From assembly GCF_016065055.1 (NCBI RefSeq), contig NZ_CP065856.1, positions 4,091,836-4,155,835 of the forward strand: DNA of 64,000 nucleotides. The letters run 5' to 3'. Numbering within the stretch: the stretch's first letter is position 1; the number at the start of each line of letters is the position of its first letter. Positions 25,394 to 29,216 of this stretch are shown piece by piece. The DNA comes from Halosimplex litoreum. GTDB taxonomy: Archaea; Halobacteriota; Halobacteria; Halobacteriales; Haloarculaceae. The notes under the pieces are model-generated. The model was not told the DNA's origin. It saw nothing but the letters and a program-made list of their open reading frames with translations, and searched no databases. A program made the position numbers and the translations under genes.

Positions 25394-25454
25394 CCCCCGG
25401 CCCGCGCACGGGACCCTCGGTTGCGGAGAGACACGGCTGTTCGAACGGCAGCGA

Positions 25455-25491
25455 TGTGCGCCCGGAACCTACCGGGCGAGGATCTACTAGT
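25455..25491 (+). repeat. Palindromic cassette repeat C1
   Basis: TGTGCGCCCGGAAC followed by CTACCGGGCGA and TCTACTAGT. CGCCCGG (25459-25465) pairs with CCGGGCG (25472-25478) around a 6-nt loop. A close copy (C2) is at 26266-26303 and a degenerate one (C3) at 27175-27199, all in the same orientation and bracketing two toxin-antitoxin modules. Confidence 0.8.
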
Positions 25492-25514
25492 GAATCCACA
25501 CCTGAAGTACGGCA

Positions 25515-25531
25515 GTACGTTCATTACGTAC
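25515..25531 (+). promoter_or_regulatory. Perfect 6-5-6 palindrome, likely operator of the wHTH/PemK module
   Basis: GTACGT (25515-25520) and ACGTAC (25526-25531) flank TCATT. The site is centred 27 nt before the ATG at 25550, where the TATA/BRE of a leaderless gene should be, so a bound regulator would block TBP/TFB. Autorepression by the wHTH antitoxin encoded just downstream is the obvious inference. Confidence 0.6.
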
Positions 25532-25549
25532 GCACACTAATTCCGCAGT

Positions 25550-25924
25550 ATGCCCGTGAGCATCGACGAGTTCGAATCGGGTGACCTTCCAGAGGGGCCG
25601 AGTGTGCCCGAGCAGGTGATCACGTACCTCCACACGCGCCGGGACGCGGCGTTCACCCGGTCGGAGATAGCTACTGCCATCGACGAGGATCCGAACACGG
25701 TCGGCACCGCGCTCACGCGATTGAAAGCGCGTGACCTCGTCCGTCATCGAGGGCAGTACTGGGCGATCACGGAGGACGAACAGCGGATCACCGCAGCGTA
25801 CGATCTACACGACGTGAGCGAACGACTCGACGAAGCCGACGGCGGAATCGAGTCGGAACACTGGGACGCTGTCGCACCCGACCAGCCGCATCCGAGCGAA
25901 CGGGATTCGAGCGGCGACGAGTAA
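25550..25924 (+). CDS. Winged-helix (MarR-like) putative antitoxin
   Basis: 124-aa acidic protein. Residues about 20-75 form a winged helix (VPEQVITYLHTRRDAAFTRSEIATAI, NTVGTALTRLKARDLVRHRG, wing QYWAITED). The C-terminal 50 residues are acidic and probably disordered, as in antitoxins that wrap a toxin. It lies 3 nt upstream of a PemK/MazF-like gene and has a palindromic operator at its own promoter, so it fits a DNA-binding antitoxin. It could instead be a plain regulator. Base composition of this locus is more AT-rich than its neighbours, hinting at transfer. Confidence 0.75.
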   Translation: MPVSIDEFESGDLPEGPSVPEQVITYLHTRRDAAFTRSEIATAIDEDPNTVGTALTRLKARDLVRHRGQYWAITEDEQRITAAYDLHDVSERLDEADGGIESEHWDAVAPDQPHPSERDSSGDE

Positions 25925-25927
25925 TCG

Positions 25928-26257
25928 ATGGAGCCGGAACGCGGCGATGTCGTCAGGAGTACCGACCCGTTCAAACTCGGTACTGATCGCCAGCGACCGT
26001 GGCTCGTCGTGAACAACGGTTCCCACCCGTTTGCCGGCGAACAACACGTCGCGGTCGCTATCTCGACGAAGGAATGCGACGACTCGATTCGTCTCGGGGA
26101 GGATGTCTGGGAAACGGGCGGTGTTCCACGAGCGTCGTTCGTCTCGCCGTGGGCAGTTCACTCGCCCCGGAGCGAAGACCTCGTCGCGTGGCAGGGCCGA
26201 GCTACTGACGAGTTCGTTGATCGCGTCGTCGACTCACTGGAGACGTATCTGCGGTAG
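25928..26257 (+). CDS. PemK/MazF-like mRNA interferase toxin
   Basis: 109-aa protein of the MazF/PemK superfamily, which cleaves RNA in type II toxin-antitoxin systems. The N-terminus has RGDVVRSTDPFKLGTDRQRPWLVVNN (the usual G-D-V-V and K/R-R-P-W-L-V-V), then FAGEQHVAVAIST and a hydrophobic core FVSPWAVHS. The family's catalytic Arg and Ser/Thr positions (RP, STK) are present. It follows the wHTH gene by 3 nt. Haloarchaeal pairings of PemK with a wHTH protein are known as families; activity here is inferred. Confidence 0.8.
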   Translation: MEPERGDVVRSTDPFKLGTDRQRPWLVVNNGSHPFAGEQHVAVAISTKECDDSIRLGEDVWETGGVPRASFVSPWAVHSPRSEDLVAWQGRATDEFVDRVVDSLETYLR

Positions 26258-26265
26258 TTTCGAAG

Positions 26266-26303
26266 TGTACGCCCGGAACACTACCGGGCGAATTTCTACT
26301 AGT
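26266..26303 (+). repeat. Palindromic cassette repeat C2
   Basis: TGTACGCCCGGAACAC, TACCGGGCGA and TCTACTAGT. CGCCCGG (26270-26276) pairs with CCGGGCG (26284-26290) around a 7-nt loop. It begins 9 nt after the PemK stop and lies between the two convergent toxin-antitoxin modules. It may also terminate both. Confidence 0.8.
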
Positions 26304-26358
26304 AGGCTCGGTGGGAGTGGAATCGTGCCCCTCAGTCGCTCGTCGACGGACAGAACCC

Positions 26359-26850
26359 CTATTCGTCCACTTCCGAGAGAACGCGCGAATAGAGACCGTC
26401 GGAAATCCAGAATCCAGCCTCGCGGAGGGCATCGAGTTCCATCTCCAGATCTACGTCACCGGTTTTCGCCCCACGGAGTAAGATGCCGATGACGCCGGTA
26501 ACCTCCAAGTCGTGTCTGCGGGCGACGCGCCGCCCATCTCGTTCGTCGAGTAGAACAAGTTCGGCCCCGTGTTCGACCCCGTAGCAAATTGCCGCCGTCT
26601 CCCCGAGGTCGAGTTCGTGGGAGACTTCGACGAACAGGTCCGAACGCTCCACCTCGACGATGCGCAGGAAATCGTCATCTCGTAGCTCTCGGAGCGCTTC
26701 CAGCCCCGCCTCTCCCTCGGTGAGTTCGTTCCAGACCCGGCGCGGGACGGTAATGTCGGAGAACTGTGTTCGGAGAAGGTCGAGCCGTTCGATGAGTGCG
26801 AGATTCAGGAGTGGCGATGTGTCGGAGACCACCGCCGCGCTATTCGGCAT
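26359..26850 (-). CDS. DUF3368 PIN-like toxin
   Basis: 163-aa PIN-fold ribonuclease-like protein. It starts with VVSDTSPLLNLALIERLDLL (first catalytic Asp), then VPRRVWNELTEG, LDLGETAAICYGVEHGAELVLLDERDGRRVARR (further acidic residues) and VTGVIGILLRGAKTG. This is the DUF3368 layout, whose usual partner is a UPF0175 antitoxin, and that partner is present: its gene lies upstream and overlaps by 11 nt. Likely RNase toxin of a type II system; target unknown. Confidence 0.85.
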   Translation of the reverse strand: MPNSAAVVSDTSPLLNLALIERLDLLRTQFSDITVPRRVWNELTEGEAGLEALRELRDDDFLRIVEVERSDLFVEVSHELDLGETAAICYGVEHGAELVLLDERDGRRVARRHDLEVTGVIGILLRGAKTGDVDLEMELDALREAGFWISDGLYSRVLSEVDE

Positions 26851-27085
26851 AGTCGAGGTCTTCTTCGAGTTCCCGGTCGCCGTAGTGGCGGGGAATCTCT
26901 CGCTCCCCGAGGAGTTCTTGGAACTCCGCTTTCGACATCTCCGCCAGAGTCCGGGCCTTCCCGAAGGAGAGTACGTCACGGGCGTACAGCGAGACCGCTA
27001 ACTCCCGCTTCATCGCGGGCGAGCGCTCCCCCTCTGGGAGCTGTAACGCCTCGTAGACGTCGTCGTCGATCTCTATTGTCGCCAT
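26840..27085 (-). CDS. UPF0175 family antitoxin
   Basis: 81-aa protein. It starts with ATIEIDDDVYEALQLPEGER, a ribbon-helix-like strand, followed by the UPF0175 signature RELAVSLYARDVLSFGKARTLAEMSKAEFQELLGEREIP. The tail is acidic. Its 3' end overlaps the DUF3368 toxin start by 11 nt, the normal antitoxin-first order. The pair lies between repeats C2 and C3 and points opposite to the wHTH/PemK pair. Confidence 0.85.
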   Translation of the reverse strand: MATIEIDDDVYEALQLPEGERSPAMKRELAVSLYARDVLSFGKARTLAEMSKAEFQELLGEREIPRHYGDRELEEDLDYAE

Positions 27086-27174
27086 GCTCGGGCTACGTGG
27101 AGGCGATTCTTGAGTGTTTGGCCGGGGCTTCCCGAGCGGGCGACATGTGAAGCGAGCGCTCGAAGCAGTCGAAA

Positions 27175-27199
27175 TGTGCGCCCGGAACACTAACGACCG
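27175..27199 (+). repeat. Degenerate cassette repeat C3
   Basis: TGTGCGCCCGGAACACTAAC then GACCG. The left arm and loop match C2 exactly, but the right arm reads ACGACCG and no longer pairs (about 7 of 10 positions match). The upstream CAGTCGAAATGTGCG also resembles the C1 flank CAGCGATGTGCG. Confidence 0.7.
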
Positions 27200-27252
27200 A
27201 CATCATCCCTGGCGGCGTGCCGGGTCAGCCGGGAAACCCTCGTGCCGGGCGA

Positions 27253-27403
27253 GTGGCGCGGTAGCGCCACTAATTGCCGAAGCGGCGTGAGCCGCTGAGG
27301 CGGGAAGTGCCGTCAGGCACCTCCGATTGCCGAGACGGCGTGAGCCGTCGAGGCGGGTGCCGAGGCGACCGCGACCCCTCGGCTGGCCGGCGCTTGCGGC
27401 GCC
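27253..27403. repeat. Array of short hairpins with a 32-nt direct repeat
   Basis: Successive stems are GTGGCGC/GCGCCAC (27253-27270, loop GGTA), AGCGGC/GCCGCT (27281-27296, loop GTGA), GTGCC/GGCAC (27307-27320, loop GTCA), GACGGC/GCCGTC (27334-27349, loop GTGA), GCCGAGG/CCTCGGC (27359-27383) and GGCGC/GCGCC (27389-27403). The second and fourth stems lie in two copies of a 32-nt repeat (27273-27304 and 27326-27357) that differ only by paired AG-to-GA and CT-to-TC changes, preserving the stem. Confidence 0.75.
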
Positions 27404-27571
27404 ACTCGGTGTCGCGTGCCCGGGTTCGCCGCGCTGTCATCGCACCCGTCCGGGTACGCTCGGGCGGGGACTAAAGGCACGCAGTCGGGCGTAGACGACC
27501 GGGACGATTAAACACTCCGCACCGCCGCGACCGATCGACCGGCGTCCGCGCGCCGCCTCGCCATGGCAAGC

Positions 27572-27602: not shown

Positions 27603-29216
27603 ATGAGCGCGAGCGGAGGCGACGGCGCCGACCGGACGCCGAGCGAGCGGGTCGACGTGTGCGTCGTGGGCGCGGGACCGGCGGGCGCGCTCGCGGCGTA
27701 CCGACTGGCCGAACGCGGCCACGAGGTGGTCGTCCTCGAAGCGGGGCCGCGGTTCGACGCGGCGGACCGCCGGGAGCGGATGGAGCGGGCGATCCGGCCG
27801 GCACACGGTTCGCTGTCGGTCTGGGAGATGGGCGGCGAGCGCGACGCCCACAGTTCGAGTGGCGAGCTGTTCTACCCGCTGAACGCGATGCGGGTGAAGG
27901 GCGTCGGCGGGTCGACGCTGCACTGGCAGGGGATGGTGATGCGGCTGCACGAGTCCGACTTCGAGCGGCGGAGCCGCGACGGCGTCGCCGCCGACTGGCC
28001 GATCGCCTACGAGGACCTGCGGCCGTACTACGCCGCCGCCGAGTCGGCCATCGGCGTCGCCGGCGCGTCGGACAACCCCTTCGCGCCGCCACGTGAGGAG
28101 CCCCATCCGCTGCCGGCGTTTCCACCCTCCTACAGCGACTCGCTGTTCGCCGAGGCCTGCGAGGAGCTGGGGATCGCGACCCACTCGGTCCCCAACGCCC
28201 GAAATTCCGAGACCTACGACGGCCGCGGCCAGTGCGTCGGCTACGGCACCTGCCAGCCGGTCTGTCCCTCCGGCGCGAAGTACAGCGCCGACCACACGGT
28301 CGGGGCGGCCGAGGACGCCGGCGCCCGCGTCCTCGATCGGGTCCCCGTCCAGCGCCTGGAAACCGACCGGAGCGGCGAGCGCGTCACTGCTGCGGTCTAC
28401 GCCGCACCAGACGGGACCGAACACCGTCAGGAAGCGCGGCAGTTCGTCCTCGCCGCGGGCGGGGTGGAGATCCCGCGCTTGCTCCTGCTCTCGAAGTCCG
28501 ACGCCCATCCCGACGGGCTCGCCAATTCGAGCGGGCTCGTCGGCCGGTACTTCATGGAGCACCTGTTCGCCGGGACCGGCGGGACCCTCGACCAACGCAC
28601 CCGGCAGAACCACGTCGGGTTCAATACGACGGAGACCCACCAGTACTACGACAACGACTTCGACGGTGTGGGGCCGATCAAACTGGAGTTCCTCAACTAC
28701 GCCGGCCCCTCGCCGGTCGAGCAAGCGCTCGGTGCCGACCAGTGGGGCGACGACCTGCTCGACTCGCTGCGGGCGAGCTACGGGACTCACGTCGCGATGG
28801 GCGGGCTGGTGGGGCAGCTCCCGCGGAAGTCGAACCGAGTCACGCTCGACCCGTCGACGACCGACGACCACGGCAATCCCGTGCCCGACGTCCAGTGGTC
28901 GCTGGACGACCGGACGCGGCGGTCGCTCGCGAAGGCCAACGAGATCCAGGGTCGGGTAATGGACGAACTCGGCGTCGACGTGGGATGGACGGTCGGGCCG
29001 GAGAACACCGGTCCGGCGGCCCATCACATGGGGACGACGCGGATGGGAACCGACCCCGAGTCCAGCGTCGTGAACCCGCGGTTGCGGACCCACGACGTGG
29101 GGAACCTCTCGGTGGCGTCGTCGTCGGTGTTCGTCACCAGCGGCGCCATGAACCCGACGCTCACCATCGCGGCGCTGGCGCTGAAAGCGGCGGACCACGT
29201 GGACGAGGATCTGTGA
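27603..29216 (+). CDS. GMC-family FAD oxidoreductase
   Basis: 537-aa flavoprotein of the glucose-methanol-choline family. The N-terminal FAD motif is VCVVGAGPAGALAAYRLAERGHEVVVLEAG; then come VGGSTLHWQGM, CVGYGTCQPVCPSGAKYSAD (a conserved Cys-rich stretch seen in gluconate-dehydrogenase-like members) and the C-terminal HHMGTTRMG and SGAMNPTLTIAALALKAADH, with the active-site His. The substrate is unknown; sugar-acid or alcohol dehydrogenases fit. The iron-box operator directly upstream suggests metal-responsive control. Start chosen at ATG 27603. Confidence 0.9.
   Translation: MSASGGDGADRTPSERVDVCVVGAGPAGALAAYRLAERGHEVVVLEAGPRFDAADRRERMERAIRPAHGSLSVWEMGGERDAHSSSGELFYPLNAMRVKGVGGSTLHWQGMVMRLHESDFERRSRDGVAADWPIAYEDLRPYYAAAESAIGVAGASDNPFAPPREEPHPLPAFPPSYSDSLFAEACEELGIATHSVPNARNSETYDGRGQCVGYGTCQPVCPSGAKYSADHTVGAAEDAGARVLDRVPVQRLETDRSGERVTAAVYAAPDGTEHRQEARQFVLAAGGVEIPRLLLLSKSDAHPDGLANSSGLVGRYFMEHLFAGTGGTLDQRTRQNHVGFNTTETHQYYDNDFDGVGPIKLEFLNYAGPSPVEQALGADQWGDDLLDSLRASYGTHVAMGGLVGQLPRKSNRVTLDPSTTDDHGNPVPDVQWSLDDRTRRSLAKANEIQGRVMDELGVDVGWTVGPENTGPAAHHMGTTRMGTDPESSVVNPRLRTHDVGNLSVASSSVFVTSGAMNPTLTIAALALKAADHVDEDL

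Follow-up and report, generated by a model that had tools for sequence, protein, structure and literature searches.

The window, a stretch of 64,000 nt from Halosimplex litoreum, contains a row of short hairpins between two larger hairpins, HP1 and HP2, that are conserved across haloarchaea. We propose that this row is the spacer of a minus-strand gene (27175–27483; HP1, spacer, HP2) encoding a box H/ACA guide RNA with two hairpins that directs pseudouridylation, a reading to which we assign a probability of about 0.9. The features of the gene, from the promoter to the 3′ end of the RNA, are as follows.

27506–27512, minus strand: TATA box TTTAATC, about 29 nt upstream of HP1 (BRE/TATA profile of 115 loci)
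27414–27483, minus strand: HP1, the first H/ACA hairpin, with lower stem, pocket and K-turn motif GAUGA (match to covariance model R2)
27410–27412, minus strand: ACA box of HP1 (box profile over 115 loci)
27252–27413, minus strand: spacer with the hairpin array, between HP1 and HP2 (the feature originally reported)
27389–27403, minus strand: stem D, 5 bp with a 5-nt loop
27359–27383, minus strand: stem C, 7 bp with a long loop
27329–27354, minus strand: type B hairpin 2, with two compensating pair swaps relative to type B hairpin 1
27303–27324, minus strand: type A hairpin 2, 9 bp, loop UGAC on the RNA strand
27276–27301, minus strand: type B hairpin 1, with 3 bp, a 2×2 internal loop, 6 bp and a tetraloop
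27252–27271, minus strand: terminal type A hairpin, adjoining HP2, 8 bp with a 4-nt loop
27179–27251, minus strand: HP2, the second H/ACA hairpin, with lower stem, pocket CACGAGGGUU / CGUUAGUG and K-turn CUGA..GAUGAUG (match to covariance model R1)
27175–27177, minus strand: ACA box of HP2, which is the 3′ end of the RNA (box profile and window sequence)

The preliminary description of this DNA had reported six short stems, several with 4-nt loops, and a repeat whose two copies differ at AG/GA and CT/TC. All six stems and the paired repeat are present at 27253–27403 when the window sequence is folded as the plus strand, and the fold of this stretch beats 200 of 200 dinucleotide shuffles (z −5.96). 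The near-identical repeat copies (27264–27304 and 27317–27357) lie 53 nt apart, with a chance expectation of 0, and the differences between them amount, as described, to two compensating base-pair swaps. The paired-repeat pattern is unique in the 4.16-Mb genome. Stem D is a separate hairpin in the plus-strand fold and pairs with the terminal hairpin in the minimum free energy structure of the minus strand; in this folding model of the window’s minus strand, the first and last array stems can pair and close the array into a single domain. The stems are thus where they were described, although they form only the middle of a larger element (27175–27483), of which the minus strand would be transcribed.

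A BLAST search with the region found a match in 55 of 146 genomes of the family. Alignment of 19 loci revealed two conserved blocks (27179–27251 and 27414–27483) flanking a hairpin row that varies, and covariance models were made of the HP2 block (R1) and, from the 19 loci, of the HP1 block (R2). Across the haloarchaeal class, the R1 model recovered the HP2 block from 384 of 391 genomes, which represent 85 of 86 genera, with few exceptions as a single copy. The HP1 block is present in 134 of 142 family genomes, including 95 of the 95 of good quality, and was also found in 99/100 and 18/19 named loci. HP1 and HP2 adjoin on one strand in all 115 loci measured. In two small-genome members of the order (G321 and G374), and in two more with weak matches (G164 and G446), the guide RNA is either absent or highly diverged.

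Outside the order, 12 genomes in a 392-genome sample of the phylum gave a weak match to the HP2 block, and their loci carry HP1 and HP2 almost side by side, nearly without a spacer. L235 and L224, which belong to this group of loci, match HgcG/Pab40 (RF00064) over most of its length under permissive settings (E values of 2e-5 and 1.4e-4), at 25.3 and 22 bits relative to an Rfam cut-off of 77. These matches fall on the strand opposite to that of our original model, and the initial idea of a new plus-strand RNA of unidentified family was dropped after they were found. The plain-settings Rfam search of the window returned no match; RF00064 has no match in the window up to E 5, and does not reach E 10 either in the H. 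litoreum genome or in L133, a haloarchaeal locus that lacks the spacer. The last two guide hairpins, the strand and the ACA layout of HgcG/Pab40/Pf7 correspond to those of the haloarchaeal RNA, but the thermococcal Pf7 is without an array, and the haloarchaeal members tested score below any threshold. Pf7 is described as having three hairpins in the text available of PMC2584109. We consider it very probable that the gene is an ortholog of both the HP1/HP2 guide known from haloarchaea and the thermococcal HgcG/Pab40. The preliminary description was correct in pointing to an RNA, but it is of a known guide-RNA kind rather than a new family, and lies on the opposite strand. RNase P RNA was considered and rejected, as its gene sits elsewhere (G000, 2644462–2644820).

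Pairing preserves the H/ACA architecture (lower stem, internal pocket and upper stem) in both hairpins. In HP2, 97.6% of cells are paired and four pairs carry double changes; 13 cells are double-changed compared with 4.2 in shuffles, and none of 500 shuffles scored as high. The corresponding values for HP1 are 97.2% and four double-change pairs, part of the structure counted being the pocket on the true strand. An ACA (ANA) box lies just 3′ of the stem in almost every locus compared (115 for HP1 and 112 for HP2), and the four nucleotides after the HP1 stem are GACA in 73 of the 115 loci, CACA in 12, AACA in 10, GATA in 8 and TACA in 7. The K-turn motif YGA..GAUGA occurs at HP2 in 90 of 115 loci and a K-turn-like YGAS..GAUGA at HP1 in 100 of 115, the misses that were listed having near variants. 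Upstream of HP1 on the minus strand, the promoter profile consists of a purine-rich BRE (−36 to −31), a TATA element (−27 to −24) and TA at −10/−9; TTA or TAA occurs between −36 and −21 in 89 of 115 loci, compared with 12 of 112 on the opposite side. Transcription from this promoter and assembly of the RNA with the H/ACA proteins (Cbf5, Nop10, Gar1 and L7Ae) would be expected from these sequence features. A GMC oxidoreductase gene (27603–29216, plus strand) is divergent from the guide RNA gene, and its promoter region thus faces the guide RNA promoter.

A guide RNA with two H/ACA hairpins, in the same order and with a spacer as in the window RNA, is known from Haloferax. We take this to be the RNA named sR-h45, and Blaby 2011 is said to be the experimental paper on it. 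The available text of PMC2584109 and PMC4652768 describes the HP1 and HP2 guide with targets psi1956/1958 and psi2621, and gives 23S psi2621 as the target of HP1. A pocket scan of the organism’s own 3501-nt 23S stretch placed helix 69 best among three candidate sites for HP2, which is predicted to direct pseudouridylation there. The corresponding scan with the HP1 pocket did not recover the published target in the 23S stretch; by hand, no more than 5 + 3 bp fit GGGUU-UA-GACC. HP1 is predicted to guide modification near the 2580–2621 region of the 23S rRNA, an assignment in which the literature fills the gap left by the scan. A term search of the available text of a transcriptome paper (PMC6490895) found no mention of the guide RNA beyond the references.

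We compared spacers in two sets. The first comprises 115 haloarchaeal loci, from 119 named loci minus two with no HP1 match (L137 and L212) and two at a contig end (L183 and L211); the second, of 134 spacers, adds the 19 aligned loci, so that some species are repeated (for example, L003 and L119). Across the 115 loci, spacer length ranges from 6 to 257 nt (median 49), and there is no common sequence. Lengths are steady in some genera (44–47 nt in nine Halorubrum, 34–36 nt in six Natrinema) and variable in others (94–153 nt in six Haloarcula), with the longest in Halorhabdus. In at least four of the 115 loci (L133, L156, L215 and L108, Halocatena among them) HP1 and HP2 lie only 6–13 nt apart.

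Despite the lack of a common sequence, the spacers fold. The median folding z is −2.65 for the 111 spacers of at least 28 nt and −4.26 for the 48 of at least 60 nt, compared with −0.06 for flanking control windows (n = 94), and hairpins cover 63% of spacer bases versus 29% after shuffling. In 119 of the 130 spacers of at least 28 nt, a terminal hairpin stops no more than 3 nt from HP2, and in 103 it abuts HP2 exactly. This hairpin has 81 distinct 5′ arms, with all pair types at most positions. When spacers were not selected by fold, six base pairs formed beside HP2 in 92 of 122 distinct spacers, and in 6% with arms swapped between species. The claim of the preliminary description that structure rather than sequence is maintained is therefore upheld across species, by the folding z, the diversity of arms and the arm-swap control.

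The recurrent type B unit is built from a 3-bp outer stem and a 6-bp stem, separated by a 2×2 internal loop that reads UC/UC on the RNA strand. We counted 57 such units, as against 12.2 in shuffles, in 36 of 134 spacers; the internal loop is UC/UC in 36 of the 57. When units were identified by their outer sequence alone, 20 were found with seven distinct arm pairs, all seven fully paired, whereas swapped arms gave a mean of 2.27 of 7 paired; the number of pairs is small and swapped arms can reach the maximum of 7, so this comparison is supportive only. Six of the 134 spacers contain exact internal repeats; in five, the copies are 52, 100, 101, 103 and 152 nt apart, which is close to one, two or three A-plus-B modules. 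The array thus grows by duplication of modules, with pairing kept while the sequence drifts. Type B units gave no sign of concerted evolution, identity being 0.76 within arrays (5 pairs) and 0.75 between arrays (346 pairs). The modular make-up of the spacer, in which hairpin types alternate, appears not to have been described in the literature so far, although the spacer itself was noted in 2008: the available text of PMC2584109 states that HP1 and HP2 are separated by ‘a long spacer’ in halobacteria and adjacent in thermococci, and PMC4652768 discusses these HP1/HP2 motifs too. As far as that text goes, only a long spacer is mentioned, whereas the spacer is here a modular hairpin array in which pairing is kept and sequence is not.

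We tentatively suggest, at a little under even odds, that the array serves as an insulating linker between the two guide domains. Two guide RNPs would form, one on HP1 and one on HP2, and the spacer would gain or lose length in whole hairpin modules. Selection would keep each module self-folding, most likely so that a very GC-rich linker spares the guide pockets, and a self-folded linker would most likely leave the two RNP domains independent. In predicted folds, the lower stem of HP1 forms at 0.82 with the native spacer versus 0.65 with a shuffled one, and that of HP2 at 0.64 versus 0.36; the native spacer is better than a composition-matched shuffle in 87 of 110 loci (Wilcoxon p 3e-14). The lower stems are predicted to form best of all with the spacer removed (0.94 for HP1 and 0.91 for HP2), so that insulation may explain why the linker folds but not why it exists, and the haloarchaea that manage with 6–13 nt are a counterpoint to the need for a linker.

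Alternatively, the array may be neutral filler without a task of its own, in which insertions and duplications were tolerated only if self-folding. This neutral expansion of the linker is a serious rival, which we regard as quite possible if somewhat doubtful. It is consistent with the wide range of lengths and lack of a common sequence, with the absence of a spacer from four of the 115 loci, with the exact module duplications and with the closest relatives outside the order being almost without a spacer. It fits less well with a spacer that is near-universal in haloarchaea, with a hairpin set so exactly against HP2, with the steady lengths of Halorubrum and Natrinema, and with a recurrent type B unit that has a conserved core.

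By analogy with CsrB-type RNAs, the modules might instead form a platform for a further, halophile-specific protein. In RNAs of the CsrB/RsmZ type, short hairpins are repeated within a non-coding RNA, as they are in the array; the array differs in having no constant loop motif, in being variable to absent and in lying inside a guide RNA. The excess of type B units over shuffles, their constant UC/UC internal loop and a bias of the loops to UNAC (73 of 169) are what a protein-binding element might display, but fewer than a third of the spacers contain the unit, the number of modules varies from none upward, and we know of no protein partner. We consider such a platform unlikely.

The array was taken as part of the minus-strand transcript because the promoter, the ACA boxes and the guides are all on that strand. 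It seems to us very improbable that the array is, instead or in addition, a separate RNA of the plus strand, in which the internal loops would be tandem GA and the tetraloops GNRA-like. For 86 of 111 loci, the plus strand of the spacer has the lower predicted folding energy, and the type B internal loop reads as tandem GA (GA/GA) on that strand. Against this, G.U pairs number 44 on the minus strand and 20 on the plus, and of the 169 tetraloops the 73 that are UNAC on the minus strand outnumber the 34 that would be GNRA on the plus, in classes that overlap. Invariant U.G and G.U pairs, at one stage taken as strand evidence, lie in the guide pocket on the minus strand.

Beyond the 3′ end of the RNA, the window contains a row of short cassettes (25454–27177) with toxin-antitoxin-like gene pairs, and the cassette heads duplicate the guide RNA 3′ end. 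The features of this row are as follows.

26359–27085, minus strand: cassette genes for a DUF3368 protein and a UPF0175 protein, toxin-antitoxin-like
26266–26306, plus strand: cassette junction, in which CCGGGCGA and CTACTAGTAG come after a copy of the RNA 3′ end
25454–25491, plus strand: second, degenerate cassette junction

The only ARAGORN tRNA call in the window (25670–25758, minus strand) lies outside the guide element, overlaps a predicted cassette ORF and has no assignable anticodon; it is probably spurious.

The junction head, TGT-CGCCCGG-ACACTA on the plus strand, reproduces three parts of the RNA 3′ end: the ACA box, the lower stem and the 3′ guide strand. The RNA end recurs beyond the RNA in 16 of 122 loci (one place is represented by both the window and L001), and no copy was found on the other side of the guide gene in 113 loci. 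Of the 292 haloarchaeal genomes compared, 53 carry the junction pattern, and the reversed pattern was not among the matches listed in the same search. In the 43 of the 53 site-bearing genomes for which an RNA position was listed, 84 of 87 junction sites are no more than 12 kb past the RNA 3′ end and in matching orientation, the expected number being 0.19. We recorded 67 junctions in 20 regions plus the window, most of the cassettes being 0.7–1.1 kb long. A Pfam search of 79 cassette ORFs, selected from cassettes of 0.5–3 kb by length, codon and charge filters rather than representing every ORF, identified 11 DUF433, 8 DUF5615, 7 UPF0175, 7 Fic and 5 DUF3368 proteins, families that we take, partly from general knowledge, to be toxin-antitoxin-like. 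The 25 of 29 Pfam families listed for these ORFs include no tyrosine recombinase family. In L166 and L223, on the plus-strand upstream side of HP2, there are longer cassettes with apparent transposase-like and TnpB-like ORFs (one OrfB_IS605 Pfam match), which suggests secondary insertions into cassette arrays.

Recombination thus appears to occur at the 3′ end of the guide gene and not in the hairpin array. The preliminary description had proposed a recombination role for the array, next to a cassette repeat; this finds no support, as that repeat copies the guide RNA 3′ end, and the array was rejected as a cassette attachment site, with no junctions within it. That the array is a cruciform recombination site is improbable in the extreme: its strong inverted repeats and the cassette junctions nearby would suit one, but the junction repeats do not copy it, the cassettes lie beyond the RNA 3′ end and not on the other side, and most genomes have an array, compared with 53 of 292 for the junction pattern.

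We lean instead towards the guide RNA gene itself doubling as an attachment site for integron-like capture of cassettes, with the recombinase encoded elsewhere. As the RNA 3′ end is copied at the cassette heads, the RNA would regain an intact end every time a cassette inserts. Attachment sites of the tRNA-gene and integron kind offer a parallel in the position at the 3′ end of an RNA gene, the 7-nt core between inverted arms and the arrays of short toxin-antitoxin cassettes (compare the available text of PMC8371274 and PMC9668308). The locus studied here differs in that the RNA gene is an H/ACA guide and in the lack of a tyrosine recombinase among the families listed.

A striking structure that lacked annotation is here assigned to a guide RNA for ribosome modification. 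Rfam 15 misses this guide RNA in the haloarchaeal genome searched, whereas the models presented here find it in nearly all genomes of the group. Its spacer provides a clean natural case of selection on folding over sequence, in which even related genera differ by gains and losses of modules, and its occurrence in a genetically tractable group makes the role of linkers in multi-hairpin guide RNAs testable. The guide locus is also a hotspot at which toxin-antitoxin-like cassettes are stacked against an RNA gene. If our reading of the junctions is true, haloarchaea would possess an integron-like capture system anchored on a near-universal H/ACA guide RNA, and this cassette system may be a more surprising part of the locus than the array.
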